DNA of 32,541 nucleotides. Origin: an uncultured Roseburia sp. GTDB taxonomy: Bacteria; Bacillota; Clostridia; Lachnospirales; Lachnospiraceae. The DNA lies in NCBI GenBank assembly GCA_947573605.1, contig CANPGM010000040.1, positions 1 through 32,541 on the forward strand, in the 5' to 3' direction. Below, in pieces: positions 1,651 to 25,718 of this stretch (position 1 is its first letter; each line of letters opens with the position of its first letter). A model generated the notes under the pieces. The model was given only the letters and a program-made list of their open reading frames with translations. It had not been told where the DNA came from and did not search any database. Made by a program: the position numbers and the translations under genes.

Positions 1651-2568
1651 TCATGTCAGTCCCGCCATAAATAAAGCCACAAAAATGATGACTGCCACAG
1701 CAATCACAACCGCCACGCATATCATCGTAAGAAGCGGCCCGGTTACATTCGACACAGGCACTACAACGCCAAGTTTCCAACTGCTTCCTTTGATTTCCGA
1801 GACGGCAAAATAGCACATACTTCCGTCATAATCCGCAAGCTTTTTTACACGGCCGTCCGTTCCTTCCATCAACTCCTTAAGGCCCGGCATTTTTTCGGAA
1901 ACTGCAACCGCTTCATGCTCCGTTGGCTCGTATTCACTGTTTTTATGGACAATATAGCGCCCGCTGCTGTCCGCCAGAAAACCGTAAACTCCTTTTGCAT
2001 AACGGATACTCTCTGTCAGATCCGTCACCGTGCCAAGCGTAACGTCCAGACCAATCACGCCTGCCAGTTCCCCTTCTATGTAGATTGGCGCTGCAATTGT
2101 GGTACACATTTGATTTGTCAGCACATCCCAGTAAGGATCCGTCACAATCACGTCTTTCGCCTCTGCAGCCTGCCCGTACCATCCGCGCGCTACCGGATCA
2201 TAGCCCTCCGGTATCTCCGCCTCCCGGTTGGACTGGATAAATCTGCTGTCTTTTGTACCGCAGTATAGATTCAATAGTTCTTCTCTTCCCGCTGCATGTA
2301 CGTCTACAACAGACTGAATAAAGTCCGTATCGAGACTTCCTCCCGCCTGTATACTGTCCGCCGCTCCGTCTGCAAGCATTTTCTCATTTTCCATCCATGT
2401 ATTGATTTCTTCCGCATATTTCTCTGCATTTAACTGCAGCGCTTCCGTCTGTTCCTGAATCATACGGTTTCCGGCAATTGAAATAATCCCGACAGTAGTC
2501 AGAAGAATACTTGCAATCACAATAGCCGTGACACTGGCCGTAAGCCTTCCCTTTATTGTCCTTAACAT
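1651..2568 (-). CDS. dCache sensor without output domain
   Basis: 305 aa: TM helix 1 near residues 11-33, an extracellular dCache_1 domain (about 35-275), TM helix 2 near 279-302, then a stop three residues later. There is no HAMP, methyl-accepting, kinase or GGDEF domain. The Cache core carries Y123, R128, W130, Y131 and D175 in the pattern Y-x4-R-x-W-Y followed by Y146 and GLD, which matches the amino-acid-binding motif described for dCache_1AA sensors. An amino acid ligand is therefore inferred. AGGAGG lies 8 bases before the ATG, and the gene starts 12 bp after its upstream neighbour, so it is probably the last gene of the NRPS operon. Downstream DNA shows no HAMP-like sequence in another frame, so the truncation looks native rather than a frameshift. 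Confidence 0.8.
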   Translation of the reverse strand: MLRTIKGRLTASVTAIVIASILLTTVGIISIAGNRMIQEQTEALQLNAEKYAEEINTWMENEKMLADGAADSIQAGGSLDTDFIQSVVDVHAAGREELLNLYCGTKDSRFIQSNREAEIPEGYDPVARGWYGQAAEAKDVIVTDPYWDVLTNQMCTTIAAPIYIEGELAGVIGLDVTLGTVTDLTESIRYAKGVYGFLADSSGRYIVHKNSEYEPTEHEAVAVSEKMPGLKELMEGTDGRVKKLADYDGSMCYFAVSEIKGSSWKLGVVVPVSNVTGPLLTMICVAVVIAVAVIIFVALFMAGLT

Positions 2569-2580
2569 GCCCTGCTCCTC

Positions 2581-3084
2581 CTAAACTTCATGCCCGGAAA
2601 TCATTGCGATATTCAATCCGTTTATACTGTATTGCATTATTTTCTCTTTGATCTGCTCCGTCCTCTTTTTATTGGTATCCTGTTTCTCGTAAATATCATT
2701 CAGCAAAAGCTCGATATTTTTCTGCATAACGATAAAAGTATGCACCATATTTTCCATAATATCAATGGCATTCCGCGGATGATTCCTGATAAATTCTTCC
2801 AGAAAGTCCTTTTCTATCCGCATCAGCAGTACCTCGTTATATGCAACTACCGTATAAACGGAAGGCTGTCCGGACAACACGTTCATTTCTCCAAAACATC
2901 TGGCTTTGGAATAGATTCCGATCAAATACTCATCCTTCTCTCCATATCTCATATACACGGCAACAGAACCTGATAAAATTTTGTACATTTCCTGGTATAC
3001 GGTACCTTCCCTCATTATCACGTCGTCTGCGTGAAACGTCAACAATTTCGACTTATCCGTTCCGCTTGTAAATTCTACATCCAT
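2581..3084 (-). CDS. Cyclic-nucleotide-binding domain protein
   Basis: 167 aa with a Crp-like cNMP-binding beta-barrel (about residues 12-120; FGEMNVLSGQPS resembles the phosphate-binding cassette, though the canonical Arg of the FGE-x-A-L-x(3)-PRAA motif is absent). A helical tail (about 120-155) follows, with no helix-turn-helix. It is therefore probably a ligand- or protein-binding module, not a transcription factor; true cAMP binding is doubtful. GGGAG precedes the ATG. It lies 22 bp after the RsbW-like gene and 12 bp before the dCache gene, in one apparent operon. Confidence 0.75.
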   Translation of the reverse strand: MDVEFTSGTDKSKLLTFHADDVIMREGTVYQEMYKILSGSVAVYMRYGEKDEYLIGIYSKARCFGEMNVLSGQPSVYTVVAYNEVLLMRIEKDFLEEFIRNHPRNAIDIMENMVHTFIVMQKNIELLLNDIYEKQDTNKKRTEQIKEKIMQYSINGLNIAMISGHEV

Positions 3085-3106
3085 CTGTCATCTCCCACTT
3101 TCTTTT

Positions 3107-3514
3107 TCAGATATTCTTTTTGATTCGGAGAATGTTCTGTCCGTTTTTATACTCATAGGAAATCTCATCCATGCTTTTTTTCACCATATAAATTCCAAGT
3201 CCGCCGATTTTCCTCTCGTCCGCAGAAAGCGCCGTATTCGGATCAGCCTTTGAGAGCGGATCGTACTGTATGCCGTTATCAATGAACGTAATCAGAACCG
3301 CCAAAGGCTGATCCGTTACCTCTACGCGGACCGTCGCAGGTCCGACGCCCGGATGATAAGCGTAGTGTGCGATATTTCCAAACAGCTCGTCAATTGCAAT
3401 CGCAATCTGCATCTTTGCTTTTCCCGAACATCCGAAACTATCCAGTTGTTCGTCCACAAAAGAAGTGACTTGTAAAATATTTTCAACTGTCGCATCAATT
3501 GTTAATTCTTTCAT
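3107..3514 (-). CDS. RsbW-like anti-sigma factor/serine kinase
   Basis: A 135-aa GHKL ATPase of the HATPase_c_2 (RsbW/SpoIIAB) type. Visible motifs are an N box (D42-E43..G46-N47), G1 box (D79-N80-G81) and G2 box (G94-G-L-G97), so ATP binding looks intact. Such kinases phosphorylate an STAS antagonist and sequester a partner. The start at 3514 is preferred over one 13 codons upstream because AAAGGGG precedes it and the ATGA overlaps the stop of the phosphatase gene by 4 bp, a classic translational coupling. The partner that it controls is not encoded nearby; no sigma factor is seen in the window. Confidence 0.85.
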   Translation of the reverse strand: MKELTIDATVENILQVTSFVDEQLDSFGCSGKAKMQIAIAIDELFGNIAHYAYHPGVGPATVRVEVTDQPLAVLITFIDNGIQYDPLSKADPNTALSADERKIGGLGIYMVKKSMDEISYEYKNGQNILRIKKNI

Positions 3515-4959
3515 TGGATATCCCCTTTCATTGGCGCCCTGTACTCTAAACAAAGCATGGTAATATCGTCAAACTGAGGCGCGTCTCCCACAAATACGTC
3601 AATATCTGATTTTATTTTAGCAAGCAGCTCTGACGGCGGCAAAGACGCATGTTTGCAGAGTATTTCCCCAAGCCTTCCCATTCCGTAAAGCTCGTTTCTT
3701 TTGTTCGTCGCTTCCGTTACGCCGTCCGTATACTGAAAAATCTTATCGCCCGCTTCAAGCTGCAAGGTTCCGCATTGATACCGCACGCCTTCCATACCGG
3801 CAAGCACAAAACCCGCCCGAATTTTATACGGTTCAAACATTCCGTTTCCTCTGCGGATAAACGGGATTTCATGTCCTGCATTTACGAACCGAAACTCTCC
3901 CGTTACCAGATCAAGCACTCCTTCAAACGCAGTGATAAACAAGCCCTCGCTGTTAGACTCACACAAAAGCTCGTTTACTTCGGTAAACACTTCGCCCAAA
4001 TCTCTGCCCGGCTGCGTATGATCTTTAATCAGCGTTTTTCCGATTACCATAAATAACGCCGCGGGAATGCCTTTTCCCGATACGTCCGCCACAACGACGG
4101 CAAGATGCCGTTCGTCCACCATAAAGAAATCGTAGAAATCACCGCCGACTTCCTTTGCAGGGTCCATCGTCGCATAAATGTCAAATTCTCTGCGTTCCGG
4201 AAAAGCGGGAAAAATACAGGGAAGCATGGACTTTTGAATATTTGTCGCAACGCTTAGTTCCGCCGTTGTTTTCATAGTCTTAGCGCTCTGATTGATGGAA
4301 TAAAAAATCATCCAGAATTCTATCACAAAAATAAGGCTTACCGTAATATACAGCAGAAAAAACCAAACGCTGTCAGGATAAATCCCGACACTGTTCGTTA
4401 CAAGATTGATCATATAAAAACCGACGACGGAAATAAAGAGCGCAGGCAGAAATACCGCCATTTTTCCCCCGACCGCCTCTATCGTACGATGGATTGTTTT
4501 TTTCAGAAACCGCGCATACAACACGGATAAAAACGAATAAATCACAAGCTTGAGTCCGATGAAAAAAACCAGATTTTCCATATCATACGGACTTTCTCTG
4601 ATAAAACCAAGCGCCGGCGCAACAAGCGTATCCGTCGTTCCGCAAAGCATAAATGTGCTTACATTTGCAATCAGGCAGGCCATCAAAGAAATAGACAGCT
4701 TAGTAGACCAACTGTCCTTATACAAAAACTGCGGCACGATGCATACAAGTGCGGACAATCCTAAAATGCCCACCGCATCATTGTATAAATCGATCGAGTA
4801 GCTTATAAACGCCATGAAATAACCGACGACGGCTCCCGCCGTCCAGACGGCGGCTCTGATGATTCCCCTGTATTTTGGGGTAAGCGTAATTCCGGTAAGC
4901 AGTCCGGCAAAAACGGACGCCAGAAAAACCGCAAAGCTCCAAAGTGCAACAGACGCCAT
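3511..4959 (-). CDS. Membrane RsbU/SpoIIE-type PP2C phosphatase
   Basis: 482 aa. The N-terminal 225 residues contain about 7 TM helices. A short helical linker leads to a SpoIIE/PP2C domain (about 255-475) with metal-binding signatures GGDFYD (272-277), A-D292-VSGKG, the YTDG-V motif at D412 and F-D464-D465-IT. All the acidic metal ligands appear present, so it should be an active Ser/Thr phosphatase that dephosphorylates an RsbV-type STAS protein. The RBS GGAGG lies 8 bases before the ATG, 15 bp after the NRPS stop. Placing the phosphatase in the membrane suggests that it reads a signal at the envelope; the N-terminal part has no recognised ligand-binding family. Confidence 0.9.
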   Translation of the reverse strand: MASVALWSFAVFLASVFAGLLTGITLTPKYRGIIRAAVWTAGAVVGYFMAFISYSIDLYNDAVGILGLSALVCIVPQFLYKDSWSTKLSISLMACLIANVSTFMLCGTTDTLVAPALGFIRESPYDMENLVFFIGLKLVIYSFLSVLYARFLKKTIHRTIEAVGGKMAVFLPALFISVVGFYMINLVTNSVGIYPDSVWFFLLYITVSLIFVIEFWMIFYSINQSAKTMKTTAELSVATNIQKSMLPCIFPAFPERREFDIYATMDPAKEVGGDFYDFFMVDERHLAVVVADVSGKGIPAALFMVIGKTLIKDHTQPGRDLGEVFTEVNELLCESNSEGLFITAFEGVLDLVTGEFRFVNAGHEIPFIRRGNGMFEPYKIRAGFVLAGMEGVRYQCGTLQLEAGDKIFQYTDGVTEATNKRNELYGMGRLGEILCKHASLPPSELLAKIKSDIDVFVGDAPQFDDITMLCLEYRAPMKGDIQ

Positions 4960-4974
4960 TTCGACACCTCCATA

Positions 4975-7900
4975 TTAAAATAAATACATTCCGTCCAAAG
5001 CAGATAAATACTTATCCAGATAATCTTCGGTTATCATACTCCACCCTTCTGACAATTCCTGTATATAGCGATTGGTTTCCTCCTGCGTTACGACAATTTC
5101 ACGGCGTGTACGCTCCGTTTCGTCCGTAAAAAGACCTTCCATCTGTTCTCTGCCCGCTTCCGTCCGCCTAAGCTTCTGCAAAAGTTCTTGAAATGCCTGA
5201 TCCGACAATACGTCTATCGAATAGCCAAGCTTACGGATTCCTTCAAACAAATCGGCAAATTTTACTTCCAGCGGAGGATAGACATGAAATGCAGCCGCTT
5301 CGTCTCCCGTAGCCGCCAATGACACAATATTGTGCGCCGTCTCGTCAACGGGCGAGAAATTTACGCTTCCGTTATACACAGACGCCGGAACTGCGCCTAT
5401 TTTAACATAGGATGATAGTCTGCGTGTAAATGCGTTAGAACGCAGGTTCATTTGAAATTCTCCGTCACGGATTCGTCCCTGCAGGTTTCCGACCCGCATA
5501 ATTTTAATTTTAAGCCCCCGGTCGACTGCCGCGCGCAGCATTTCATATTCCGCCATATATTTGGAATAAATATAGCGATTGGATATTTCCTGCCCGATAT
5601 AAAAATCCCCTTCGCCAAACGTTTCCTTTTCTGCCTTTCCGTCCGTCATTCCCGCGACACTGATGGTAGAAACCTGACATAACGCCGCATTTTCTTTTTC
5701 CGCAAAACGTATCAGATTTCTGACGCCGTCCGTATTGATTTCCTCCAATGCCGTTCCATAGGAAAAATGAGCGACGTTCGCAGCGGAATTTATAATCGTA
5801 TTAATTTTATGGGGACAGCTTTCTGAAAAAAGGTCCGGGTTTGTAATATCTCCCTCCATAACCGTCCATTTTTCGCCGTAACTTTGCGAAAAATCCTCTT
5901 CCGCATAATAAAACAGCGCTGCTTTTACGCGTCTTTCGGCGCTGTTCTTCTTCTTCGAACGCGCAAGACAGACAATCTTATTGCATATACCGGGACGCTT
6001 TAACAATTCGATCAGAAGATGGATACCAAGATATCCCGTCGCTCCGGTCAATAGCACGTTTCCGAGGCTTACCCTGCTGACGCTCTTTCCCGTATGCGCT
6101 GCAAGATACTCGTTAAAACCGTGATAATCGAGCATTTTAAGATGAAAGCCGACCACATCTTTTTCTTTTTTGTATAGCTTTTCAAGCAACAGAGAAGGCG
6201 TCGGGTATTTGTAAAAATCACCGTACTCCAACTGATTTTCCGAAAGTCCCAGTTCTTCTTCCAGGCGCAGCATTACAGTAACCGCACTTAAAGAATCGCC
6301 TCCAAGCTCAAAGAAATTATCGTCCAATCCAATTTGGGGAACACCCAGTATTTCTCCGAAAATTTTGCATACTCTTTTTTCTTTTTTTGTGTTTGCTTCC
6401 CTGTATACGCGTACGTATTCTATGGATTCCGCTCCAAGCGCTTTGAGGTCGGTTTTTCCGTTTGGGGTCTGGGGCATTTCCTTTAATTCTTTTAAAACGT
6501 CCGGCACCATATACGACGTCAGCCTGGATTTCATAAATGCTTTCAATTCCTCTGCATCCACTTTCTCCTGATCGGATACCGTATAAAATCCCACCAAATG
6601 ATCTGTTTTTTCTATTTTACGCACCATACAGCAGCAGGCGGCAATATTGGGAAATTCTCCCATTACATTTTCGATTTCCGAAAGCTCTATCCGAAGGCCG
6701 CGCAGCTTTACCTGTCTGTCGTTCCTGCCGCGATACTTAAGTCTCCCGTCTTCCGTAAAAAATCCCAGATCGCCGGTTCGATACAACCGCAGACCATTCC
6801 ACATAATATATTTATCTTCCGTCTCTTTTGGCCTGTCTTTATAACCGATACCTACCCCGTTTCCGTAGATACAGATTTCTCCGACCGCGCCGTACGGGAC
6901 CGGCTTTCTCTCCCGGTTCAGCAGAACAATTCCCATGTTTGCAATCGGCTTTCCGATGGTCTGCGCATCGTTTGCTTCGGTAATTGTTGCCCCAATTGTG
7001 GTTTCGGTCGGGCCGTAACCGTTATAAATTCGTATTTGGTAGGTATCCTTCAACCGCCTGACCAGACTTCCCGGCAGAACTTCCCCGGCCGAAAGAATTG
7101 CCCCGACATTTAAAAGCGCCTTCGTAAAAGCCGGATTGTTAAGATAAGCCGTAATTCTGGAAGGGGTGCAATGTAAAATATCCGCTCCGTGGCGCATGAT
7201 GTGCTCCGCCAGTTCCCCTGCGTCCATCATTGCTTTTTCATTGCCAAGTTCGACAAACAAGCCGTTCATAAGCGGAACAAAAATTTCATAAAGGAAAATG
7301 TCAAAACATACGGAACCGATGGCTGTGATTCCTTTGCAATTTTTTGTAATATCACGATTAAACGGATTATTATCGGGATGAACGATATTAGCAATTCCTT
7401 TGTGCGAAAGCATTACGCCTTTTGGCCTGCCCGTCGTACCTGAAGTATAAATCATATAGGCGGGATGATCCTGCCGGACTACGGGCAGAAGTCCGGGTTC
7501 CGCTTTCTGCATGATAAGGTCATTGATCTCCAAATAGGAATCATAATTTGACATTCGGACATCCGAAGAAGAAATCAAACAGACTGCCCGGCTGTTCTCC
7601 ATAATATAAGAAATACGGTCCGGCGGATAAGCAGGATCCACCGGGATAAACGCTGCCCCGGCTTTTGATATGCCGAAAATCGTCGGAATCAATCGTTCAT
7701 CCCGTTTAAGCATAAATGCGACGTAGTCTCCGCTTTTTATACCTTGACGAATTAACCCTCCGGCGATTCTGTCGCTTAGTTCGTCAAGCTCCTGAAACGT
7801 CAGTTTTTTATTTCCCGCATACAAAGCGGGCTTTTCTGCATATTGCTTTGCGGCGCATTTCAACATGGAAGGAATGGTAAGCTCCGTTCCGATCTCAAAT

Positions 7901-9189
7901 GACGGTCCTTTTACCGAAGCAGCTTTCTCATATTCTGCGTCTCCGATCGACTGAATTTCCGAAACCGTCCTGTTCTCCATCCCATCCGAGAGAATTTGAA
8001 ATAACGCTTTGCTAAAATCCTCCGCTTTTTCCTTTGTATAAACGCCCCCGCAATAGTCAAGCAAAAGCGATAAACCGCCTTTTTCATTATAAACTGCAGT
8101 GAGCGTCATATGATTCTTCATATCTCCCGCCACACTGAAACTTACGTTGTATTTTAAATCCGTTTGATATCGAAACCGGTAGAAGTTAAACACGTATTCG
8201 GAAAGAGCTTCCGATATCATATTTTCGTCACGCAAAGCCGATAAAATGCGGTCATATCCGACTCTTTTATGTGCAGACGCCTCTCTTGCAGCGCGTTCCG
8301 TTTTTTTACATAACTCCAAAAAGGTATCTTCCTGAGTTACGGTAACTCTGACCGGAACCAGAAGCGTATAGCAGCCCAGAATGTCCATCTGTTCCGGCCG
8401 GCGATTTAAACGCGGCATCAAAAACACCGCATCCTTTTTATCGGTAGCCTCTGACAGATAAAGCGCATATGCCGCCGCCAAAATATAAGGAACGGAACAA
8501 TGTTCCCGCTCTGAAAACGACGTTATTTTCTCCATCAGGGCTCCCGGCACGGAAACGACACTTTTACACATATTTGATTCGTCACTCTTTTCCGGAAAAA
8601 CGGACGGCTCAAATTCTGCGTCCGAAAAATACTGTCTCCAGAAATCTTCCTCTACAGCCTCGCCTCTGGCGCTGTCCGCGTCAAAAACAGACTTCTCTAT
8701 TTCTTTTCCGGCGAGTATATCAAGAACTCTCTGGACAAACAGGCTCATACCGTAACCGTCAATAATTAAATGATGAAACCGCACATATAAAAAGACTCCG
8801 CCTCCCAGAAGAGGAATCACTTCCGCTTCATAGAGCCTTCGGTCTATATCCATAGAAAGCCGATCCGATGCGTCCATATATTCGCGGGCCCGGTCGTAAA
8901 ACCGTTCCTCCGTAATACTGCACCCGCTTTTCTTCTTATCCCCGTAAACAAGCGTCCACTCGCTTTTACCGCGGTGTAAAGAGGCGGTAAAAATATCGGC
9001 GCTGTCAAGCGCCGTATCTGCCGCCTCCTTTACTGACATAGAACTTCCTTCCGGCAAATGAAGCTTTAAAGAAATCGTATTTTGCGCGCCGCCCCAGAAG
9101 ACCTGCTCCGTATCTGCAATTGCTTTCTGAGACAGACTTAATCCCTGTTCTTTCATAGCTTCTTTGCGTTTCTGATTTACTGTTCCCAT
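4975..9189 (-). CDS. Single-module NRPS, C-A-T-reductase
   Basis: 1,404 aa. Condensation domain (about 20-430) with H139-H140-xxx-D144-G145 intact. Adenylation domain (about 440-915): phosphate loop 581-591 (YTSGTTGRPKG), GYGPTETT near 724-731, YRTGD near 803, catalytic K912. Carrier domain with phosphopantetheine Ser966 in LGGDS. C-terminal thioester reductase (about 1040-1400) with Rossmann motif GATGYLG (1049-1055) and catalytic Y1206/K1210 plus S1174/T1175. The expected chemistry is activation of one amino acid, acylation or condensation of its amine, and NAD(P)H-dependent release as an aldehyde or alcohol. By simple motif alignment the specificity code is D-I-Y-H-L-A-G-I-G-K; I cannot assign a substrate. 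No thioesterase, second module or phosphopantetheinyl transferase is in the window. Related C-A-T-R enzymes of gut Clostridia are known to make amino aldehydes and pyrazinones. Confidence 0.93.
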   Translation of the reverse strand: MGTVNQKRKEAMKEQGLSLSQKAIADTEQVFWGGAQNTISLKLHLPEGSSMSVKEAADTALDSADIFTASLHRGKSEWTLVYGDKKKSGCSITEERFYDRAREYMDASDRLSMDIDRRLYEAEVIPLLGGGVFLYVRFHHLIIDGYGMSLFVQRVLDILAGKEIEKSVFDADSARGEAVEEDFWRQYFSDAEFEPSVFPEKSDESNMCKSVVSVPGALMEKITSFSEREHCSVPYILAAAYALYLSEATDKKDAVFLMPRLNRRPEQMDILGCYTLLVPVRVTVTQEDTFLELCKKTERAAREASAHKRVGYDRILSALRDENMISEALSEYVFNFYRFRYQTDLKYNVSFSVAGDMKNHMTLTAVYNEKGGLSLLLDYCGGVYTKEKAEDFSKALFQILSDGMENRTVSEIQSIGDAEYEKAASVKGPSFEIGTELTIPSMLKCAAKQYAEKPALYAGNKKLTFQELDELSDRIAGGLIRQGIKSGDYVAFMLKRDERLIPTIFGISKAGAAFIPVDPAYPPDRISYIMENSRAVCLISSSDVRMSNYDSYLEINDLIMQKAEPGLLPVVRQDHPAYMIYTSGTTGRPKGVMLSHKGIANIVHPDNNPFNRDITKNCKGITAIGSVCFDIFLYEIFVPLMNGLFVELGNEKAMMDAGELAEHIMRHGADILHCTPSRITAYLNNPAFTKALLNVGAILSAGEVLPGSLVRRLKDTYQIRIYNGYGPTETTIGATITEANDAQTIGKPIANMGIVLLNRERKPVPYGAVGEICIYGNGVGIGYKDRPKETEDKYIMWNGLRLYRTGDLGFFTEDGRLKYRGRNDRQVKLRGLRIELSEIENVMGEFPNIAACCCMVRKIEKTDHLVGFYTVSDQEKVDAEELKAFMKSRLTSYMVPDVLKELKEMPQTPNGKTDLKALGAESIEYVRVYREANTKKEKRVCKIFGEILGVPQIGLDDNFFELGGDSLSAVTVMLRLEEELGLSENQLEYGDFYKYPTPSLLLEKLYKKEKDVVGFHLKMLDYHGFNEYLAAHTGKSVSRVSLGNVLLTGATGYLGIHLLIELLKRPGICNKIVCLARSKKKNSAERRVKAALFYYAEEDFSQSYGEKWTVMEGDITNPDLFSESCPHKINTIINSAANVAHFSYGTALEEINTDGVRNLIRFAEKENAALCQVSTISVAGMTDGKAEKETFGEGDFYIGQEISNRYIYSKYMAEYEMLRAAVDRGLKIKIMRVGNLQGRIRDGEFQMNLRSNAFTRRLSSYVKIGAVPASVYNGSVNFSPVDETAHNIVSLAATGDEAAAFHVYPPLEVKFADLFEGIRKLGYSIDVLSDQAFQELLQKLRRTEAGREQMEGLFTDETERTRREIVVTQEETNRYIQELSEGWSMITEDYLDKYLSALDGMYLF

Positions 9190-9223
9190 ATTTTTCTCCC
9201 CGCCATTTTACCTGTAGCAGTTT

Positions 9224-9526
9224 TTATTTCTTCTCAATCGTTAAAATCTCGGAAAAACCGGTAACTTCAAAAATTTCCATAATCGTATCGTTTACGTTTG
9301 TAACCTTCATTTTCCCCTGTTTGTTCATTGTTTTCTGTGTTCCCAGCAGAACACGCAGCCCGGCCGATGATAAATAATCCAGTTCTGCCATATCAATCGT
9401 CAATTCCGTAACGCCTTCAATGGAACTGTTTACCGCTGCCTCCAGACTCGGCGCGGTATTGGTATCCAGTCTTCCTTCGAGAGCAAAGCATAATTCGGTT
9501 CCTGTTCCTGTTTTTGTAATTTTCAT
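9224..9526 (-). CDS. RsbV-like STAS anti-anti-sigma factor
   Basis: A 100-aa STAS domain protein of normal length for RsbV/SpoIIAA. The conserved LSSAGLRVLL segment holds the predicted phospho-acceptor serine. Dephosphorylated, it should bind an RsbW-like kinase; the RsbU-like phosphatase would reset it. The start at 9526 is chosen because AAAGGGAG lies just upstream; an in-frame start 17 codons earlier lacks that signal. It sits 34 bp before the NRPS and 87 bp after the MATE fusion, so its candidate partners are encoded on both sides of it. Confidence 0.9.
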   Translation of the reverse strand: MKITKTGTGTELCFALEGRLDTNTAPSLEAAVNSSIEGVTELTIDMAELDYLSSAGLRVLLGTQKTMNKQGKMKVTNVNDTIMEIFEVTGFSEILTIEKK

Positions 9527-9578
9527 ATTTTTCTCCCTTTCTGCGCTGCTTTTTTGTGCATAACGAGTTTGTGGCAAG

Positions 9579-9600
9579 TCATTTCCGGCTTTGCAGCGGC
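9579..9600 (-). repeat. Short palindromic leader motif, copy 1
   Basis: The plus-strand sequence TCATTTCCGGCTTTGCAGC resembles TCATTCTGCCGCTTTGCAGC at 13789-13808 and the version at 19452-19469. It lies in the gap between the MATE fusion and the STAS gene and could form a small hairpin in the mRNA. Confidence 0.3.
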
Positions 9601-9613
9601 CTCTTTTTTATTT

Positions 9614-11386
9614 TTAGATTGTGATCATTAAATTGTTCATACTCATGGTATTTGCATAGGAAACATCTTTTGAAAGACCAAGTACCATGCGAATCCCTAC
9701 ATTCTCTTCGGGATGCTCCCTGTCAAGCTCCCAGCTTTCCACTTTTTCCTTTAAATCGAATCTCCGGCAGTCGTCCCTCAGCCTCAGAAGAATTTCGTCT
9801 TCTTTTATTATTACGCGTATATCAATACTGTGCCTTTTGCCGTCGCTAAAACCGTATTGTACGGTATTCCCGGCCATTTCCTCAATACAAAGAGACAGCA
9901 GACAGGTTCTGCGGTCGTCCACTCCGTGTTTTTTGCAAAAATCGCCGACCCGTTCGGACAGTCCGATTACTTCCTCCATACTATGTACGGAAATCGAAAT
10001 GCCGTCCTCTTCCGGTATACAAAAATCATCCGGCAGAAACAGCATTTTATCTATTCCTTTCGCCTTTGTATTTTTACGGAAGAACGCGCAGCATAAGAAA
10101 ATCACAAGCAAAAGCAGCTGCCCGGCCGGAAACGCGGCCCAAACTCCGTCAAGACCGAACAAATGTGAAAGAGACACTACGCACGTAATAACACAAACCA
10201 GCTCGCTGCCGATATTAAACAGATACGCGCCCTTTTGATTGCCGATTGCCTGTAAATAGCTTCCTATAATCATATTCAGCGCTGCGAGCGGCAGCGACAA
10301 GGCATACCATCGAATCGCATCGACGGCCATTACACGCACAACCGCATCATCCGGCAGGTAAAGCTGCGCCGCAAGCGGGGCGGCGGCAAAGACAAGCACC
10401 GCAAGCGCGCCGATTCCAAGCACCGCATAGCGAGCGGCAATCTGCAGCAGATGTCTCAGTTCGTTCATATCCTGTTCTCCCGCAAAAATTCCCGCGATCA
10501 AAAGTACTGCGCCGCCGATTCCACATGCGGGCGCGCCTACAAAAAATTTGATATTGTTCTGAATGGACATAGCCGTCATACCGGCCGTCGCTGCAATCGA
10601 GAGTACGACAGCATTTGTAAAAACAGGTCCCAGCGCCCGGCAGAACATGCTGATGCCCCGCGGCAGTCCGCCCGTAATAATCGGAAGCGTTCGTTTCCAG
10701 TCGTCCTTTTTTAATGAAAAGCGAAACATCCGGTCTTTTTTTACAAAGTGCGTCAGCAGCACCGCAAGCGCAGCGATATAACTGACGGTAGTGCCAAGAC
10801 CGATACCGACAAGTCCCAAATCAAGTACTGCCACGAAAAACAGATTTGCAAGAATATCGGTTACGGCAACAACTGCGCTCGCCAGATTCGCGCGCCGGGA
10901 GTCCCCGTCCAGCTGCACGATCGGAGCCAGAATCACAACGAGGACATTTGCCGGCGTACCCAGAAAAAGACCGATAAGATAACTTTTCGTATAAGGCAGC
11001 AGCCCCGCGGAGGCGCCGCGCGCGCCTAAAAGCGTGCTGAAAGGACCTGCGAAAAGAATACCCAGTATTGTTAAGATCCCGGAAAACAGCAGGCCCAGTA
11101 CGCAGGTAAGAGAAAAAATTCCTTTTGCTTCCTCCATTCTTCCGCTTCCGACGCTCCTTGCGCACATTGTCTGGCAGCTTACCATCAATATTCCGCTCAC
11201 AATTGCGACAATACTGAAATAAGGCGCCGCAATTCCATATGCCGCCATCTCTGTCGAACCCAGAAAACGGCTGGTAATCAGACCGTCGACGACACAGGAT
11301 ACCGCATTTGCCAACTCTACCATAGTCATAACCGTCATTGTACCTATAAACTGTTTTTTCGTAATGGAAGTATATTTTTCCCGCAC
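9614..11386 (-). CDS. MATE transporter fused to RsbW-like ATPase
   Basis: 590 aa. Residues 1-440 form a MATE-family multidrug/metabolite exporter with about 12 TM helices in two similar halves. Residues about 460-590 form a cytoplasmic HATPase_c_2 domain like RsbW: N box E502-E503..N507, a weak G1 box (RDD at 537-539, without the usual Gly) and a G2-like ENVGIRMV near 561-568. A typical MATE protein is about 450 aa, so the tail is an added domain. The start is GTG with GAGAGGG 8 bases upstream. It begins 38 bp after dgt and leads into the STAS gene. The inferred role is export of the NRPS product, gated or reported through STAS binding; kinase activity is uncertain because of the G1 change. 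Confidence 0.88.
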   Translation of the reverse strand: MREKYTSITKKQFIGTMTVMTMVELANAVSCVVDGLITSRFLGSTEMAAYGIAAPYFSIVAIVSGILMVSCQTMCARSVGSGRMEEAKGIFSLTCVLGLLFSGILTILGILFAGPFSTLLGARGASAGLLPYTKSYLIGLFLGTPANVLVVILAPIVQLDGDSRRANLASAVVAVTDILANLFFVAVLDLGLVGIGLGTTVSYIAALAVLLTHFVKKDRMFRFSLKKDDWKRTLPIITGGLPRGISMFCRALGPVFTNAVVLSIAATAGMTAMSIQNNIKFFVGAPACGIGGAVLLIAGIFAGEQDMNELRHLLQIAARYAVLGIGALAVLVFAAAPLAAQLYLPDDAVVRVMAVDAIRWYALSLPLAALNMIIGSYLQAIGNQKGAYLFNIGSELVCVITCVVSLSHLFGLDGVWAAFPAGQLLLLVIFLCCAFFRKNTKAKGIDKMLFLPDDFCIPEEDGISISVHSMEEVIGLSERVGDFCKKHGVDDRRTCLLSLCIEEMAGNTVQYGFSDGKRHSIDIRVIIKEDEILLRLRDDCRRFDLKEKVESWELDREHPEENVGIRMVLGLSKDVSYANTMSMNNLMITI

Positions 11387-11424: not shown

Positions 11425-12888
11425 TTAAAATCCTTCTAACACCTGGTATGTCTCTTTTGCTTCCGTATCGGTCATGCCGCTGATATAATCTACGACCATA
11501 AGCAGCCGAAGATACAAATCATAGGCTGTATCGCCCGTACGCGCCGCCAGGTAGTCGTCCTGATACTTCTGCGGTATGAACTCGAGATATTTTTGCGTAA
11601 CCAGATTCATGGAACAATTTCCCTGTCCGGCCTCCCAGCAAAGCGCGGCCGGAACGAACTGATCCAGAAGCGACCGGATGATCTTTTGCCCCGATAACTC
11701 CTGTTTCAACAGTTCCCTGTAGGGATACGTGTACTTTTTCATAATTCCTTTCAGAATATCAGCCGTAAAAACATACCATCCGTCCGCTAACAATTCCTGC
11801 TGAAACTCTCCGTTCATAATTTTTTCGTAGTTTCTGAAAAAAGAGTAGGCTGCCGCATAAATCAGCCAGTTTTTTACATATTCCAACCAGCCGGAATACG
11901 CATACTTTTTGTCTTTTTCGTCTTCCGCTCCTATGAAACGCTTTTTCAAATTGTTTAGAATCTCCATCGTCGCCATCTGCTGCAGCTCATGAAATTCGTC
12001 CCCGTCGTCCGGTATTTTCGCAATCTCCGTTTCAAAATATGAAACGACGGTATCTATGGAAAAAAGATTCATTCGGAGGGAATCCTCCAAATCCGAAATC
12101 ATATAGGCAATATCGTCCGCCGCCTCAAGCAGCCAGGTAAGCGGATAACGTGACATTCCTTCCACTCCGGCGTTGCTTCTGACTTCTTCAAACTTCTCTT
12201 TATCCGCCAGAAAATATCCCCACTTATGCACCCGGATATCGCTGCTTTTACTATTGCTATGAAGGGAAGCGACCGGGTATTTAATCAGTGTATTGATCGT
12301 CGCGCAGGAAATATTCATTTCCCGGTACTTCGGAAGCCTGGCCGCGCGAAAAAGAATCCGAAGCGCTTCGGCGTTCCCTTCAAACTGTGTCAGGTCCCGC
12401 TTCATCTGCTCGTTCAATAGTTCTCCAACCGGCTTTCCCTGAAAAGCAAACGCTGCATCCGCAAAAGCATTCTGAAACCAGCTTCCGATTGACGCCTCTC
12501 CGAAATGTCCGAAAGGCGGATTTCCGATATCGTGCAGCAGTCCCGCGCAGGATAAAATCGTAGAAAAATTCCGGGCATAGCGTTCGGTATTTTCCCCAAA
12601 ATCCACCGCGTATTCTTCGCCCTTTTTGTTGCATGCAATCATTGCTCCGAGCTGTTTGCAGATGGACGACACCTCCAGAGAATGGGTCAGCCTTGTTCGG
12701 ACATGCCCTCCCCGGACAAGCGGAAAAAGCTGCGTCTTATCCTGCAGATTACGAAACAGCCTGCTGTTTATAATTTCTATGTAATCTCTTTCAAAGGCAT
12801 CGACCGGATATGCTTTCCATGACGCAGGTCCGTCTTCACGCGGTATCTGCATTTCTTTTGAAAGTAAACTTTCCCATTCCATCTTCAT
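11425..12888 (-). CDS. dgt: Deoxyguanosinetriphosphate triphosphohydrolase-like HD protein
   Basis: A 487-aa HD-domain protein of the dGTPase (Dgt) family, which hydrolyses dNTPs to deoxynucleosides and triphosphate. The metal-binding residues are visible: H69 in RTRLTHSLEV, H119-D120 in LLHDIGNPPFGHFGE, and a later Asp in EAADDIAY. The start at 12888 is chosen because AGGAGG lies 6 bases upstream; an earlier in-frame start would overlap the VOC gene. It is 25 bp after the VOC gene and 38 bp before the MATE fusion, so it may be co-transcribed with the NRPS set. Substrate preference among dNTPs cannot be told. Confidence 0.88.
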   Translation of the reverse strand: MKMEWESLLSKEMQIPREDGPASWKAYPVDAFERDYIEIINSRLFRNLQDKTQLFPLVRGGHVRTRLTHSLEVSSICKQLGAMIACNKKGEEYAVDFGENTERYARNFSTILSCAGLLHDIGNPPFGHFGEASIGSWFQNAFADAAFAFQGKPVGELLNEQMKRDLTQFEGNAEALRILFRAARLPKYREMNISCATINTLIKYPVASLHSNSKSSDIRVHKWGYFLADKEKFEEVRSNAGVEGMSRYPLTWLLEAADDIAYMISDLEDSLRMNLFSIDTVVSYFETEIAKIPDDGDEFHELQQMATMEILNNLKKRFIGAEDEKDKKYAYSGWLEYVKNWLIYAAAYSFFRNYEKIMNGEFQQELLADGWYVFTADILKGIMKKYTYPYRELLKQELSGQKIIRSLLDQFVPAALCWEAGQGNCSMNLVTQKYLEFIPQKYQDDYLAARTGDTAYDLYLRLLMVVDYISGMTDTEAKETYQVLEGF

Positions 12889-12913
12889 TTCCGGCCTCCT
12901 CTCCTTTTTCGGC

Positions 12914-13495
12914 TCAGTCTCCGATATCCGTATGTCCCTGCTCAAATTCCCACTGCAGACCATACTTATCAATAAAGTAAAAATATTTTGTATTTCCTAA
13001 GATATCAGCCGCGTTTTGTTTGGACGCCGCATCGTTTTCCTTTTCCGGATCAAAGAAGCGGAACTCAGACGGATCCGTTTTACTGATCTGAAAGACTTTG
13101 TAATCATCCGTTGTATTAATCAGCGTTACATCCGGCTGCGCTTTTATATAGTTAAATGCTTCTTCTATATTGACTACTTTCAGCGCAACATGCCTTGCTC
13201 CGCTGATATCGTTTGCTTTAAAAATCACCGGCTCCTGTCTTCCCTTCGGCGAATGATAACACATCAGTTCAATCGTGAACTTCGTTCCCGGCACATCCAT
13301 AAAGCCGATAGAGACCTCCGCCTCCTCCGCCTCTTTTATAAATCCGCCCGCCCGAAAAAATCCGGGATTCTTCCAATGCGGAATATACTGATTCGGAACA
13401 GCTCCTAAAATTCTTTCATAATAGTGAAACGCTTCCTCCACATCATTTACAAATATACAAACATGAGATAAGCCCGTATATACTGGTTTTTCCAT
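12914..13495 (-). CDS. VOC/glyoxalase-family protein
   Basis: A 193-aa protein of the vicinal oxygen chelate superfamily. The N-terminal half begins with the usual LSHVCIFVNDVEEAFHYYER strand-helix. A second module includes ARHVALKVVNIEEAFNYI and ends with DKYGLQWEFEQG, giving candidate metal ligands His and Glu. The family includes lyases, dioxygenases and resistance proteins, and the reaction cannot be assigned. A GGAAAGG-rich RBS precedes the ATG by about 8 bases. It is probably co-transcribed with dgt. Confidence 0.75.
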   Translation of the reverse strand: MEKPVYTGLSHVCIFVNDVEEAFHYYERILGAVPNQYIPHWKNPGFFRAGGFIKEAEEAEVSIGFMDVPGTKFTIELMCYHSPKGRQEPVIFKANDISGARHVALKVVNIEEAFNYIKAQPDVTLINTTDDYKVFQISKTDPSEFRFFDPEKENDAASKQNAADILGNTKYFYFIDKYGLQWEFEQGHTDIGD

Positions 13496-17254: not shown

Positions 17255-18793
17255 ATGACAATTGGAATCTATGCAAGAAAATCCGTATACCGGGATAACA
17301 GCGATTCTGTTCAGGTACAGATTAAAGCCTGCAGAGACTATGCGAATATTGTATTCCACGAGAAAGAGCTTGAATTTAAAATATACGATCGGGACGAGGG
17401 TTTTTCCGGAAAAAATACGAACCGTCCGTCCTTTCAGGAATTGATCTCCGACGTAACGGCGGGAAAACTGGATGCTGTCATGGTTTATAAGTTAGACCGC
17501 ATCAGCCGGAGCGTCAAAGACTTTTCCGATACTTACGAAACGCTGCAAAAAAACAATGTCGCGTTCCTGTCGGTAAAAGAAACGTTCGATACTTCCACGC
17601 CGATCGGACGTACTGTGATGTATATCCTTGCGGCCTTTGCCCAGCTTGAACGGGAAAATACGTCGGAACGCGTCTCCGACAGTATGACGGCATTAGGCGC
17701 AGGCGGAAAATGGACCGGAGGAAAACTGCCTGCCGGAATGAAGTCCGTCCGAAAAATGGTCGGAGAAAAGGAGCATTCTTTTCTCCTTGTAAATGAGGAT
17801 AAAATTGAAATTGTAGAAGAAATCTACCGGCTCTATCTTTCCGGAAAAAGTATAACCGGCATTGAACGATACTTTCGGGATAACGGGATCCGAACGGAGC
17901 AAAATAAATTTTTCGGGGCAAATCAAATCCATTCCATCCTGGCAAATCCCGTTTACTGTTCCAACGATCCGGAGGCCTATGCATATTTTAAGGACAAAGG
18001 ATACCTGCTCCCCGCAAAAGAGCAGTTTGACGGAACAAAAGGCTTAATCGGATACGGCAAAACCAGACAGGGCAATACGCGGGTAAAAAACGAAAACTGG
18101 TCCGTCGCAATCGGAATACACAGGCCCGTAATTCCCGCTTCAGACTGGATCCGATGTCAGAAACGGTTTGGGGAAAACAAAATGTACCGGGGAAATAAAT
18201 ACGAGTCCGGTATCTTGAAAGGGATTCTCCGCTGTCAGTGCGGCTCCAGAGTCGACATCAGAACCTATTCCAAACACAATCGTCTCTTTTCCTACTATTA
18301 TTGCGCCAAAATGGCGCGCCAGGGAAAAACAGTATGTAATACCGAATATGTCCGCGTCAATATCATAGACAATTTATTTATACAAAAGCTGCAGGAAATA
18401 AAGCTGAACCCGGAAAGTATTGTCCTAAAAACAGATACGGAGTATATCAACACGGATAAGCTGAAAGCGGACGTAAAGAAAGCAGAAACCGCTATTGCAA
18501 ATCTTACGAAAGTTTTAATGGACAATATGACGTCTTCCGCCTCCGGCTATATTATTGCCCAAATCGAAACACTTGACAGAGAGAAAAGCCTTCTTGCTCA
18601 AAAACTGGAAGCTGCGGAACGAAACAACAGAAATGTTTTCTCGGCTGTAGATACAAAAGCGTACATACATAAAAACATCTGCCATTTGCTGAATCATTTT
18701 GACGACATGTCCTATACGGAGAAAAACGAGTTACTGAGAAACACCGTTACATCCTGCATCTTAACGGAAAAAGGCATTCGGATTGTTTTCTAA
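17255..18793 (+). CDS. Large serine recombinase (integrase)
   Basis: 512 aa. The N-terminal resolvase/invertase catalytic domain (about 1-150) has the nucleophile Ser10 in IYARKS and the conserved R82/R85 in KLDRISRS. A recombinase domain (about 160-290) follows, then a zinc ribbon with Cys pairs (RCQCGS and YYCA..VCN) and a C-terminal coiled coil (about 390-480). The architecture and length fit large serine integrases that catalyse att-site integration and, with a directionality factor, excision. It ends 20 bp before the right att core. The RBS is modest (GAAAGG about 12 bases before the ATG). It is probably active, since all key residues are present. Confidence 0.93.
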   Translation: MTIGIYARKSVYRDNSDSVQVQIKACRDYANIVFHEKELEFKIYDRDEGFSGKNTNRPSFQELISDVTAGKLDAVMVYKLDRISRSVKDFSDTYETLQKNNVAFLSVKETFDTSTPIGRTVMYILAAFAQLERENTSERVSDSMTALGAGGKWTGGKLPAGMKSVRKMVGEKEHSFLLVNEDKIEIVEEIYRLYLSGKSITGIERYFRDNGIRTEQNKFFGANQIHSILANPVYCSNDPEAYAYFKDKGYLLPAKEQFDGTKGLIGYGKTRQGNTRVKNENWSVAIGIHRPVIPASDWIRCQKRFGENKMYRGNKYESGILKGILRCQCGSRVDIRTYSKHNRLFSYYYCAKMARQGKTVCNTEYVRVNIIDNLFIQKLQEIKLNPESIVLKTDTEYINTDKLKADVKKAETAIANLTKVLMDNMTSSASGYIIAQIETLDREKSLLAQKLEAAERNNRNVFSAVDTKAYIHKNICHLLNHFDDMSYTEKNELLRNTVTSCILTEKGIRIVF

Positions 18794-18804
18794 ACGTTTC
18801 AATT

Positions 18805-19443
18805 TTATATCACTACCGGAGTGCCGATCTGCCCCATCATATCATGGCCGAGGTGCTCCCTTTTATATCCGTAACTGCGCGAAACTCCAAAATCATCGTA
18901 GTCGTTATACGGAAAATCTCTTGCTATCGGAGAGAACGCTTTTAATCCGTATTTTTTTATATATTCTCCGTTTGAATCGGCCGTCTGAATTTCATATTCG
19001 CCGACATATTCCGCAAGAACGGCGCCGTATGCTTCCAAATAATAGGAATAATATTTGAGATCCGCCGAAGCCTGTTCCATCGTCGTTTCTCCCGAAAGAA
19101 TTTTATCGGCAATTTTTCGCATATCGGATACGGCTCCGGCGTCGAACTCGCCACCGTTTACCGCCGCAGTATAAGAAAGAAGCTCAATCCAGTTTAAATG
19201 AATCTCCTTTCCGTATGTATTGACATCGTACTCATAGGCCTTGCAAAGCGCTTCGTAAGAGATGTTAAAATCCACCCACTTAATCCCGTCTCCGGCTGTC
19301 GTTACCGTCTTACGGCTCCAATCATATTCTGTAATACAAAAAACGCCAATAGAAATCAGCAGCGCCGCCTCTAAGAGAATCCCCGCTGCCAGCCATTGAC
19401 GTATCCCGGTTCCTTTTCTTTTTTCGATGCTCTTTCTTCTCAT
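18805..19443 (-). pseudogene. M23 peptidase, N-terminal part (split gene)
   Basis: The 5' part of the split M23 peptidase gene: a basic N-terminus, TM anchor (about 19-38), an extracytoplasmic alpha-helical region (about 50-160) and the beginning of the LytM domain with SYGYKREHLGHD (zinc ligands H197 and D201). It then runs into the element and stops after two foreign codons, giving 212 aa. The RBS GAGAGGAAAT precedes the ATG at 19443; another ATG four codons upstream has none. As it stands the product lacks the HxH zinc motif and cannot be an active peptidase. Once rejoined to 16044-16460 it would be a normal-length 348-aa membrane-anchored endopeptidase. Confidence 0.9.
18814..18826 (+). 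repeat. Right attachment core (att site)
   Basis: TACCGGAGTGCCG, an exact copy of 16461-16473 in the same orientation. On the minus strand it encodes GTPV at codons 207-210 of the M23 gene, immediately after the zinc-binding HLGHD. Confidence 0.88.
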
Positions 19444-19446
19444 ATT

Positions 19447-19471
19447 TCCTCTCATTCTGCCGCTGCAGCGG
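19447..19471 (-). repeat. Short palindromic leader motif, copy 3
   Basis: The 18-mer TCCTCTCATTCTGCCGCT is shared with 13784-13801. Here it is followed by a perfect 14-base palindrome GCCGCTGCAGCGGC (19460-19473 region) directly before the M23 ribosome binding site. Confidence 0.4.
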
Positions 19472-23460: not shown

Positions 23461-24066
23461 TTAAAGTTTCGTAAAATTCTTTAATATGCGAAGTCCTTCC
23501 GTACTGCTCTTTTCCGGATGAAACTGGCAGGCAAAAATATTTTCCTTTTCTACCGATGCATGGATCTGCACGCCGTATTCCGCCGTGGCTTTTACAGATG
23601 TCTCATCTGCGGCCTGTAAATAATAAGAATGGACAAAATAAACATATGGCGATTCGTCCATCCCAACGAACAGCGTTCCGTCGTTTTTTAAATTCAGAGA
23701 ATTCCAACCGATATGCGGAACCTTAAGTCCCGTCTGCTCCGGCAATTTCAGTATATTTCCTTTAAGGAGACAAAGTCCTTCTACGCCGGGACTTTCCTCA
23801 CTGCTTTCAAACAAAAGCTGAAGTCCAAGACAAATCCCCAGCAGAGGCGTACCTTTTTCTGCAATTTCCTTAATGGCCTTATCCAGCTCATATTTTTTCA
23901 ACTGAGTCATTGCGTCGCCAAACGATCCGACTCCGGGAAGAATGACGCGCTCGGCGCGTGCAATCTCCCGAAACGTTCTCGTGATAACGGCTTCTTCTCC
24001 AAGCGCCGCAAGCGCTTTTTCCACACTTTTTAGATTTCCCGCATCATAATCAATAATTACCGTCAT
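23461..24066 (-). CDS. hisH: Imidazole glycerol phosphate synthase, HisH
   Basis: The 201-aa class I glutamine amidotransferase subunit that supplies ammonia to HisF. The nucleophile is Cys79 in LLGICLGLQLL; the His-Glu pair is in CQFHPEKSS near the C-terminus; oxyanion-loop PGVGSFG is at 44-50. It overlaps the upstream 551-aa gene by 4 bp (ATGA), so its translation is coupled to that unrelated-looking protein. Confidence 0.97.
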   Translation of the reverse strand: MTVIIDYDAGNLKSVEKALAALGEEAVITRTFREIARAERVILPGVGSFGDAMTQLKKYELDKAIKEIAEKGTPLLGICLGLQLLFESSEESPGVEGLCLLKGNILKLPEQTGLKVPHIGWNSLNLKNDGTLFVGMDESPYVYFVHSYYLQAADETSVKATAEYGVQIHASVEKENIFACQFHPEKSSTEGLRILKNFTKL

Positions 24067-25718
24067 TCTACTGCCTTTTCCAAGCCAAGCCTTTTAAGAA
24101 TCTGATAAATCTCTACGGAATATTCCGTTCTGTCTTCTATACCGTACAACCTGAGCGCCTCTTCCTTCGAAATGCCAAAGGTGGATACGAGCGCGGTCTC
24201 AACTGCGCTTTCCACGCCGTTCAACTCTCCGGTACATCCGTATTCTTCCGCATCAAATCTGTATTTTTCACATCTTCCGGCAGCGCGAATCAAAGAATCC
24301 AGCGCCATATCATATACTTCCGACTTCATCAGTCCCAGATATGCCTCGTATTCTCCGGAAATCATCGCCATAATCCGATAACGCTCATATGTACCGGCAT
24401 CCTTCTCTTTTACATCGACGCCAGCAATCATGCGAAACGCCTCATTGTAATTGCCTCTGTCATAGGCGCTTTTGGCATCCGAAAAATGATTGGTATATCC
24501 GACCAGATTTGTACCCGCTATAATTAAGCCAAGAAGGGAACCCGTCATGATAAAAATAAGAATGACGGGGACTTTCGGCAATGGCGGCGAATGATCCGGT
24601 TCCTTCGGCGGTTTCGGAGGTTTCTCCTTCTTTGGCTTCGGCGGTTTCTTCGGCTTTTCTTTCGCCTTTTCCTTCTTTTCCTTCTTCTTCTTTTCTTTTT
24701 TCGGTTTTTCCGCCTTTTTCTCTTTTGCCGGTTCCGCAGCAGCGCCGAGCTCATTTAGCATCTCAAGACTGCCCTCCGCGGCTCCGTTTGCCGACACGCC
24801 TTTTTTTGCGGCTTTCTTATTGCCGGAATCCTCTTCTTCTTCGTCGTCCGCACCAAATAAAATCAGACCGAGCTTGGAGAAAAATCCTCCCTCTCCTTTT
24901 TCCTGCGCCTGCTTTTTCGGCTTTTTGCCCGTCTTGCCGGACTTTGTCTCCGGTTCCTTCGGTTCTTCTTTTGTATTCTCATCCGCGGAAATCTCCGCAT
25001 TCAAACTATTTAGCAGCTCTTCCGCGGAAGCCTCTTCGGGTACGCCCCCCTGTCCCATCAGATCCTGTACGGATTCTCCTTCCGCCGCGAGAATGTCCTT
25101 AATATCCGAAAATCCGACGTCTGACCCGAAGATATCAAGCAGACTCGGCTCTTCCAGATTGACAGAAGCTTCCGCTCCTTCTGCGGATGCCGCATTCTCT
25201 TCCTGCGTATCCGGTATAAGCTGACTTAACGCTATTTCGTCCAGTTTATCCGCAATATCCGAAGAGAGGCCTTCCTCCTGTTCTTTTCCGGCATTCGGAT
25301 TCATCGTATCTATCATCAGATCGCCCAATGAATCGGCCGATACCGTCTCCTCCATCTCCTTTTTCGCGCTGTCCACAATCTGACCCAGATCTTCAATCAG
25401 ATCTCTGTTCTCTTTTGGCGCTTCCGGCTCCTCAGGTTCCTGCTGCTCTGGCTCTGCCGCAGGTTCCTCCGCAGCAGACGCTGCGTTTAAATTCATTTCC
25501 TGTTCAAAATCTTTCAGGAAATCTTCGTCTCCGTCGCCTTCTAACAGCTCCTGCTCAAACTCCTTTAAAAAAGCCTCCGCCTCGCTGTCAATTTCCCGTC
25601 GCGTTGATTCTTTTTCTTCACTGAATGCATCCCCATCATCCAAACCCGGTTTCTTCTTTGCGCCTCCGTTCGACATCTCCTGCAATAACTGATCCAGATA
25701 ATCTTCTGATTTGCTCAT
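24063..25718 (-). CDS. Large acidic single-pass membrane protein, unknown
   Basis: A 551-aa protein that I cannot place in a family. Residues 1-290 are acidic, Glu/Ala-rich and probably largely disordered, with short recurring amphipathic helices (FLKEFEQELLEG and FLKDFEQEMN are near repeats). Residues about 330-378 are a Lys/Pro tract. One TM helix follows at about 382-402. The C-terminal 150 residues are folded and helical, with TPR-like pairs (SAYDRGNYNEAFRMIAG). A long acidic cytoplasmic part next to a basic stretch at the membrane suggests a scaffold. GGAGG lies 8 bases before the ATG. It overlaps hisH by 4 bp. Confidence 0.75.
   Translation of the reverse strand: MSKSEDYLDQLLQEMSNGGAKKKPGLDDGDAFSEEKESTRREIDSEAEAFLKEFEQELLEGDGDEDFLKDFEQEMNLNAASAAEEPAAEPEQQEPEEPEAPKENRDLIEDLGQIVDSAKKEMEETVSADSLGDLMIDTMNPNAGKEQEEGLSSDIADKLDEIALSQLIPDTQEENAASAEGAEASVNLEEPSLLDIFGSDVGFSDIKDILAAEGESVQDLMGQGGVPEEASAEELLNSLNAEISADENTKEEPKEPETKSGKTGKKPKKQAQEKGEGGFFSKLGLILFGADDEEEEDSGNKKAAKKGVSANGAAEGSLEMLNELGAAAEPAKEKKAEKPKKEKKKKEKKEKAKEKPKKPPKPKKEKPPKPPKEPDHSPPLPKVPVILIFIMTGSLLGLIIAGTNLVGYTNHFSDAKSAYDRGNYNEAFRMIAGVDVKEKDAGTYERYRIMAMISGEYEAYLGLMKSEVYDMALDSLIRAAGRCEKYRFDAEEYGCTGELNGVESAVETALVSTFGISKEEALRLYGIEDRTEYSVEIYQILKRLGLEKAVE

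Follow-up and report, generated by a model that had tools for sequence, protein, structure and literature searches.

The DNA analysed here, called the window throughout, is a stretch of 32,541 nucleotides from an uncultured Roseburia sp. (assembly GCA_947573605.1, contig CANPGM010000040.1), in which seven adjacent minus-strand genes, running from position 11386 down to 1651, bring together a non-ribosomal peptide synthetase (NRPS), the parts of a partner switch and an exporter. Switches of this kind are known chiefly for regulating sigma factors. We propose that this one operates independently of a sigma factor and that its output is the natural-product pathway itself, i.e., the exporter and perhaps also the synthetase, a reading to which we give a probability of roughly 0.5. 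As far as can be judged from sequence, the switch is complete, its kinase and phosphatase motifs are intact, the exporter carries a decayed kinase-like domain, the linkage of these genes is conserved and their parts co-occur. The positions and domains listed for the seven genes in a first-pass annotation of this DNA agree with the open reading frame (ORF) coordinates and Pfam matches. In what follows, handles beginning with G designate compared genomes (G000 being the window's own), those beginning with L compared loci and those beginning with C contigs of G000; MATE-W stands for a MATE exporter with a C-terminal RsbW-like domain, and core for the gene order STAS-NRPS-SpoIIE-RsbW.

The phosphatase, kinase and STAS antagonist of the partner-switching core that the first-pass annotation had called complete are indeed all present with intact motifs. 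The phosphatase carries GGDFYD at 272, DVSGKG at 292 and FDDIT at 463, which we take to be the metal-binding Asp motifs of PP2C, and its N-terminal sensor part of about 230 aa is hydrophobic (judged by eye); SpoIIE phosphatases of three other core loci show 70-81% identity. The kinase is a free RsbW with intact N-box, DxG and GGLG, whose sequence relatives in the PDB are RsbW and SpoIIAB. Alignment of the STAS protein, whose relatives with solved structures are RsbV and SpoIIAA, reveals an SSAGLR motif with a phosphorylatable Ser; the expected phosphoacceptor is presumably Ser54, counted from the likely Met start, by alignment with SpoIIAA Ser58. Three STAS matches (window, C23 and C17) and eight HATPase_c_2 matches were found in the genome. 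Reading of the proteins assigned the C23 match to the spoIIA operon and the C17 match to a SulP-type transporter, and the window STAS is the only free STAS of the genome besides that of the spoIIA operon.

The locus contains no sigma factor gene, as had been claimed. Genome-wide, the SigBFG model exceeded its cut-off at two places, the spoIIA operon and C10, where the proteins, when read, look sporulation-specific and correspond to SigF and SigG; no cognate SigB/F-type sigma factor was found in the locus or among these over-cut-off matches. Weaker SigBFG matches in the genome include RpoD-like and FliA-like proteins.

The exporter is a MATE protein by Pfam, which recognises MatE in two stretches, and MATE structures cover profile positions 10-434. 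An RsbW-like domain occupies approximately residues 460-590 (EEMAGN at 502, RDDC at 537), and in a pairwise comparison of profiles, trained on the compared loci themselves, the MATE-W domain aligns with RsbW at 98.9% and 2e-17; the AlphaFold model of the window MATE-W has a pLDDT of 85.6. The previously noted MATE-RsbW fusion therefore stands as regards the RsbW-like domain (Pfam, profile), and probably falls as regards a second working kinase, since the domain has DxC and not DxG and misses the GG of the GGLG box. A role in docking or as a receptor seems likelier for it. Six kinase positions were scored in an alignment of 170 domains, which omits unclassifiable RsbW-like ORFs (truncated ones, those of odd length and long histidine kinases). 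The motif was complete in 86/86 RsbW, 23/23 SpoIIE-fused and 2/2 STAS-APH-fused domains, and in none of those fused to transporters (0/40 MATE, 0/9 ABC, 0/8 SDF and 0/2 EamA); the same alignment speaks against kinase activity of the MATE-fused domain. The RsbW-seeded set came from search patterns that contain kinase residues, and a fair comparison must therefore be limited to domains obtained without such patterns; among these the motif is complete in 34/34 free or SpoIIE-fused RsbW versus 0/24 transporter-fused domains.

The core recurs in all five genomes found with this NRPS, which represent at least three genera. Lack of conserved gene order in relatives had been named as a result that would speak against the association; G045, L177, L178 and L249 all keep STAS-NRPS-SpoIIE-RsbW, with the NRPS gene sitting between the STAS and the SpoIIE/RsbW genes as it does in the window. 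G045 belongs to the same genus and has, starting at the low end, RsbW, SpoIIE, NRPS, STAS, an insertion of an ABC transporter and GHKL, cNMP, MATE-W and dGTPase; L177 and L178 have the same order and the same sensor part, and L249 (G400) reads STAS-NRPS-[SpoIIE-RsbW fusion]-plain MATE. Identity to the window NRPS is 64% in G045, 49% in L177, 50% in L178 and 48% in G400. Within the family, the sensor part of the phosphatase was found in 3/397 genomes, and the condensation domain has strong matches in the same 3/397, with one weak extra match in G501 (6.9e-15). The sequence of L178 is identical to a contig of G256, a member of the window's family. The idea that MATE-W is an invariant part of the NRPS locus was rejected, as it is absent from L177, L178 and L249 although their core is retained.

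MATE-W exporters form a subfamily of their own. In a maximum-likelihood tree of 71 MATE domains, 38/38 recognised fusions fall into one clade with support 100/99, whose sole other member, L056, has a C-terminal tail that the RsbW-like profile does not recognise; the idea that the plain MATE of L249 is a MATE-W that lost its domain is unsupported, as this protein falls outside the clade. At E 1e-10 a MATE-W profile search returned 66 proteins; the 22 at the head of the list (the window's included) are 566-674 aa long, and 20/22 have both Pfam domains precomputed. When at most six candidates were scored per genome, matches that extend through the RsbW-like part of the query, at least as far as residue 580, occurred in at least 17 of 194 genomes, own included. 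The 20 MATE-W-seeded loci (17 genomes) contain free STAS in 12, SpoIIE in 10, RsbW in 9 and NRPS in 10 cases, and at least one of the four in 17/20, compared with 0/20 control loci around plain MATEs, hand-picked among search rows whose match stopped before the RsbW-like part. The linkage thus goes beyond chance: the core order recurs across genera, and none of the 20 controls has switch or NRPS genes. Other neighbours of MATE-W are GH3-type ligases, LPG-synthase-like proteins, an ATP-grasp protein, an acyltransferase, an APH protein and phosphopantetheinyl transferases; because MATE-W is found with NRPS and with such other enzymes (GH3, LPG-synthase-like), the NRPS would be one cargo of a wider design. 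We also would like to point out two proteins of 1260 and 1465 aa without Pfam match (L049:12219-16001 and L049:1856-6253, in G107), which flank a MATE-W/STAS/SpoIIE/RsbW group.

Decayed RsbW-like domains are carried by three other transporter families as well. Pairwise profile comparison relates to RsbW the C-terminus of ABC ATPases (97.6%, 3.7e-12), the N-terminus of SDF-type symporters (96.4%, 1.1e-9) and the C-terminus of EamA-type transporters (93.0%, 3.5e-7), the transporter type having been checked with Pfam in 2/8 SDF (L146, L154), 1/2 EamA (L143) and 3/9 ABC members (L039, L120, L143). The AlphaFold model of one SDF member has a pLDDT of 74.7, falling below 40 in mid-domain, and its extra domain shows the same order as that of MATE-W (strand, two helices, two strands, two helices, two strands); a Foldseek search with this model gave only transporters among the 50 matches listed. 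The RsbW-seeded loci are the best 80 of at least 577 confirmed RsbW relatives, and 24/80 contain an RsbW-domain transporter (14 MATE, 8 SDF, 6 ABC, 2 EamA, some loci having several). STAS-enzyme fusions, possibly the enzyme-side partners of the same switch, occur in 16/80, seven of which have both a fusion and an RsbW-domain transporter. The 75 SpoIIE places found comprised 12 already in the set, 51 that were added (47 strong and 4 weak, the latter, L110-L113, being counted apart from the 47) and 12 weak ones that were omitted. Of the 47 SpoIIE-seeded loci, none of which had already been included via MATE-W, only 2 contain an RsbW-domain transporter, so that many of these switches have another output.

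Individual members of these groups are as follows. Switch loci encode amino-acid-type ABC ATPases whose C-terminus is a decayed RsbW-like domain at L039:5136-6227, L071:10652-13384, L075:12721-15453, L120:1-3396, L143:14290-15411, L145:3848-4942 and L147:10347-13199. SDF-type symporters with an N-terminal decayed domain unrecognised by Pfam lie at L146:5579-7228, L147:13280-14929, L188:7173-8819, L138:6233-7888, L168:4902-6527, L154:720-2312, L117:10410-12017 and L191:6348-7973. In a Synergistaceae metagenome-assembled genome, the EamA-type transporter encoded at L143:5678-7477 ends in an RsbW-like domain and is accompanied by STAS, an LPG-synthase-like protein and dCache-SpoIIE-RsbW. Fusions of STAS to APH-type kinases (also as STAS-APH-RsbW) or to an AMP-binding ligase were seen at L176:10432-11610, L155:2800-4542, L188:8840-10402 and L082:16883-18790.

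In the sigma-independent switch that we propose, the membrane SpoIIE-type phosphatase would sense a signal via its membrane part and dephosphorylate the STAS protein, which RsbW would re-phosphorylate using ATP. Rather than freeing a sigma factor, unphosphorylated STAS would bind proteins of the pathway, its likeliest receptor in this organism being the exporter's decayed RsbW-like domain; export would then track the phosphorylation state of STAS and, probably through STAS, so would the activity or docking of the synthetase. We infer, along with the direction of control and the signal, that STAS binds the exporter domain, and perhaps the NRPS too, according to its phosphorylation state. Several observations weigh against this proposal. 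MATE-W is missing from 3/5 core loci (L177, L178 and L249), the core of L249 being adjoined by a plain MATE. In the L178 genome no RsbW-domain transporter was found, weak HATPase matches in longer ORFs being left unread, and the exporter therefore cannot be the sole output of the core; the genome of L177 encodes, away from the core, two ABC transporters with a decayed domain, one of them beside a plain MATE gene cut at the end of the stretch. Three of the 20 MATE-W loci (L040, L041 and L042) are without a switch or NRPS gene in the stretch read. Finally, E and N of the N-box are kept in 21/40 MATE-W domains, including that of the window, for which nucleotide binding is thus still possible.

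Alternative explanations differ in what they take as the output of the switch. Tentatively, the STAS protein may gate the NRPS at the enzyme level, the exporter domain being secondary, for which the action of SiaC on the cyclase SiaD provides a precedent (PMC7647112). The STAS gene directly precedes the NRPS gene in 5/5 core loci, three of them without MATE-W, and fusions link STAS with an AMP-binding ligase (L082) or with APH-type kinases; however, enzyme gating leaves unexplained why RsbW-like domains occur throughout a MATE subfamily and on three further families of transporters in such loci, and 10/20 MATE-W loci are without NRPS. A classical switch, with a sigma factor from another locus held by RsbW and the present locus belonging to its regulon or being its target, appears unlikely, even though intact RsbW and STAS are its usual parts. 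Sigma-like genes were seen in 6/127 switch loci (2/47 SpoIIE-seeded, 4/80 RsbW-seeded) and in 0/20 MATE-W-seeded loci; as in L114 such an ORF stands directly before RsbW, some relatives may be classical. The window locus, however, is without a sigma gene, its genome exceeds the SigBFG cut-off only at SigF- and SigG-like places, and 2/20 plain-MATE control stretches have a sigma-like gene too. A sigma-factor target is disfavoured by the search with the SigB/F/G model and by the locus counts, the RpoD, FliA-like and ECF families, which the genome also contains, remaining outside that model.

That switch and NRPS are mere neighbours without functional coupling, joined on a mobile or accessory island, is highly improbable. 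Such an origin would fit their patchy presence in the genus (the MATE-W orthologue was found only in G045 among the same-genus matches listed) and the large serine recombinase encoded near the locus at 17255-18793 of the window, a hint of mobility, with another beside L177, but not the conservation of order at 48-64% NRPS identity, the identical co-occurrence in 397 genomes or the physical fusion of switch domains to transporters and enzymes. A broader reading, which we regard as speculative, is that partner switches of gut Clostridia are phospho-controlled plugs joining enzymes and transporters, the window being the NRPS-exporter version. STAS would be the enzyme-side mark (free by the NRPS, or fused to an adenylation enzyme or APH-type kinases) and the kinase-dead RsbW-like domain the transporter-side mark (MATE, ABC, SDF, EamA); dephosphorylated STAS would dock the enzyme onto the transporter, so that synthesis and export, or import and phosphorylation, would be coupled or uncoupled in one step.

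Reductase-ended NRPSs are known in gut Clostridia, and the window NRPS shares this type, with motifs HHLIIDG at 139, GGDSL at 963, GATGYLG at 1049 and YIYSK at 1206 and with relatives in the PDB. Seven other compared NRPSs are 31-34% identical to it. The adenylation pocket has the same residues in all five core NRPSs except for one Tyr/Phe exchange (by eye, at presumed positions), and the product would be a capped amino aldehyde or alcohol set free by reduction. A second NRPS of the same genome with condensation, adenylation, thiolation and reductase domains lies on contig C61 (L038:1-9117); it is 34% identical, has a different adenylation pocket and is followed by a MATE-W and a phosphopantetheinyl transferase. 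As this short contig is without STAS, the STAS protein of the window may serve both exporters.

Table 1. Genes of the window locus and of its upstream flank.
Feature	Coordinates	Strand	Evidence and remarks
MATE-W exporter	9614..11386	-	Pfam MatE 1.5e-28 + HATPase_c_2 6.9e-10
STAS protein, RsbV-like antagonist	9224..9526	-	Pfam STAS 3e-16; ORF 9224-9577, likely Met start 9526
NRPS C-A-T-R, 1404 aa	4975..9189	-	Pfam Condensation, AMP-binding, PP-binding, NAD_binding_4
SpoIIE-type PP2C phosphatase, membrane	3511..4959	-	Pfam SpoIIE 3.6e-45
RsbW-type kinase, ATG at 3514	3107..3514	-	Pfam HATPase_c_2 4.9e-20
cNMP-binding-domain protein	2581..3084	-	Pfam cNMP_binding 3.4e-17
dCache sensor without output domain	1651..2568	-	Pfam dCache_1 5.7e-24
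dGTPase	11425..12972 (ORF; later start near 12888 likely)	-	ends 38 bp before MATE-W start
VOC/glyoxalase-like protein	12914..13495	-	upstream of dGTPase; block membership uncertain

In transcription order the gaps between the seven genes (Table 1) are 87, 34, 15, -4, 22 and 12 bp, as described in the first-pass annotation (4-bp overlap to 87 bp), the first being the distance from MATE-W to STAS with Met 9526 taken as the start of the latter, and the overlap being the ATGA shared by the start of the kinase gene and the phosphatase gene. Putative co-transcription is read from these intergenic gaps. Promoter-like sites in the window are near background (26 vs 20.5, standard deviation 4.5), terminator-like sites exceed it (27 vs 14.4, standard deviation 3.6), and no clear operon border emerges. 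Behind the stop codon of the dCache gene no longer frame was seen that would point to a lost output domain. Relatives of the cNMP protein are found in the G045 locus (73% identity) and the L115 locus (61%). The dGTPase is probably part of the island, because it occupies the same position in G045 (68% identity) and gave no match at E 1e-100 in 29 further genomes from the genus, a set that does not include G045. With the dGTPase and then the VOC gene in line upstream, the block may begin near 13495. VOC proteins with 86-87% identity across species are encoded near MATE-W/STAS at L122:3959-4540 and L124:3959-4540, where they adjoin MATE-W, and another lies at L115:3348-3734. Two window ORFs are without Pfam match (24063-25718, 551 aa, and 18805-19455, 216 aa).

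Like RsbU/RsbV/RsbW and SpoIIE/SpoIIAA/SpoIIAB, the locus combines a PP2C phosphatase with a STAS antagonist and a HATPase kinase, and it has relatives among the solved RsbW-RsbV and SpoIIAB-SpoIIAA structures; it differs from them in being without a sigma factor, in holding an NRPS within the putative operon and in the extra decayed kinase domain on the exporter. Non-sigma outputs have been described: in Pseudomonas aeruginosa, SiaABC acts on SiaD (PMC7647112), a partner switch with an enzyme as output, as proposed here. Differently from the window, that output is a diguanylate cyclase, and the available part of the source mentions no transporter fusion (PMC7647112); the window phosphatase does not belong to the SiaA family, scoring 42.5 bits against an NF038263 cut-off of 700. 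Similarly, the RbaVW(Y) partner-switch homologues of Rhodobacter capsulatus are without an identified sigma factor, and the same source remarks that such systems can control enzymes; their output is gene transfer agent production, with no transporter or NRPS mentioned in its available part (PMC3999984). A report on gut NRPS-like fatty acid amide enzymes leaves SpoIIE and STAS unmentioned in the part available (PMC13142362). No report that places an NRPS or a MATE within a partner switch was found in open-licence full texts, subscription papers lying outside the search, and our claim of novelty is limited to that literature.

If true, a partner-switch domain welded to transporters inside biosynthetic operons would mean direct post-translational gating of both the synthesis and the release of metabolites in gut bacteria, and the output of many sigma-less RsbW loci would become testable. 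The combination of MATE-W and STAS would then also offer a genomic handle for overlooked biosynthetic operons.

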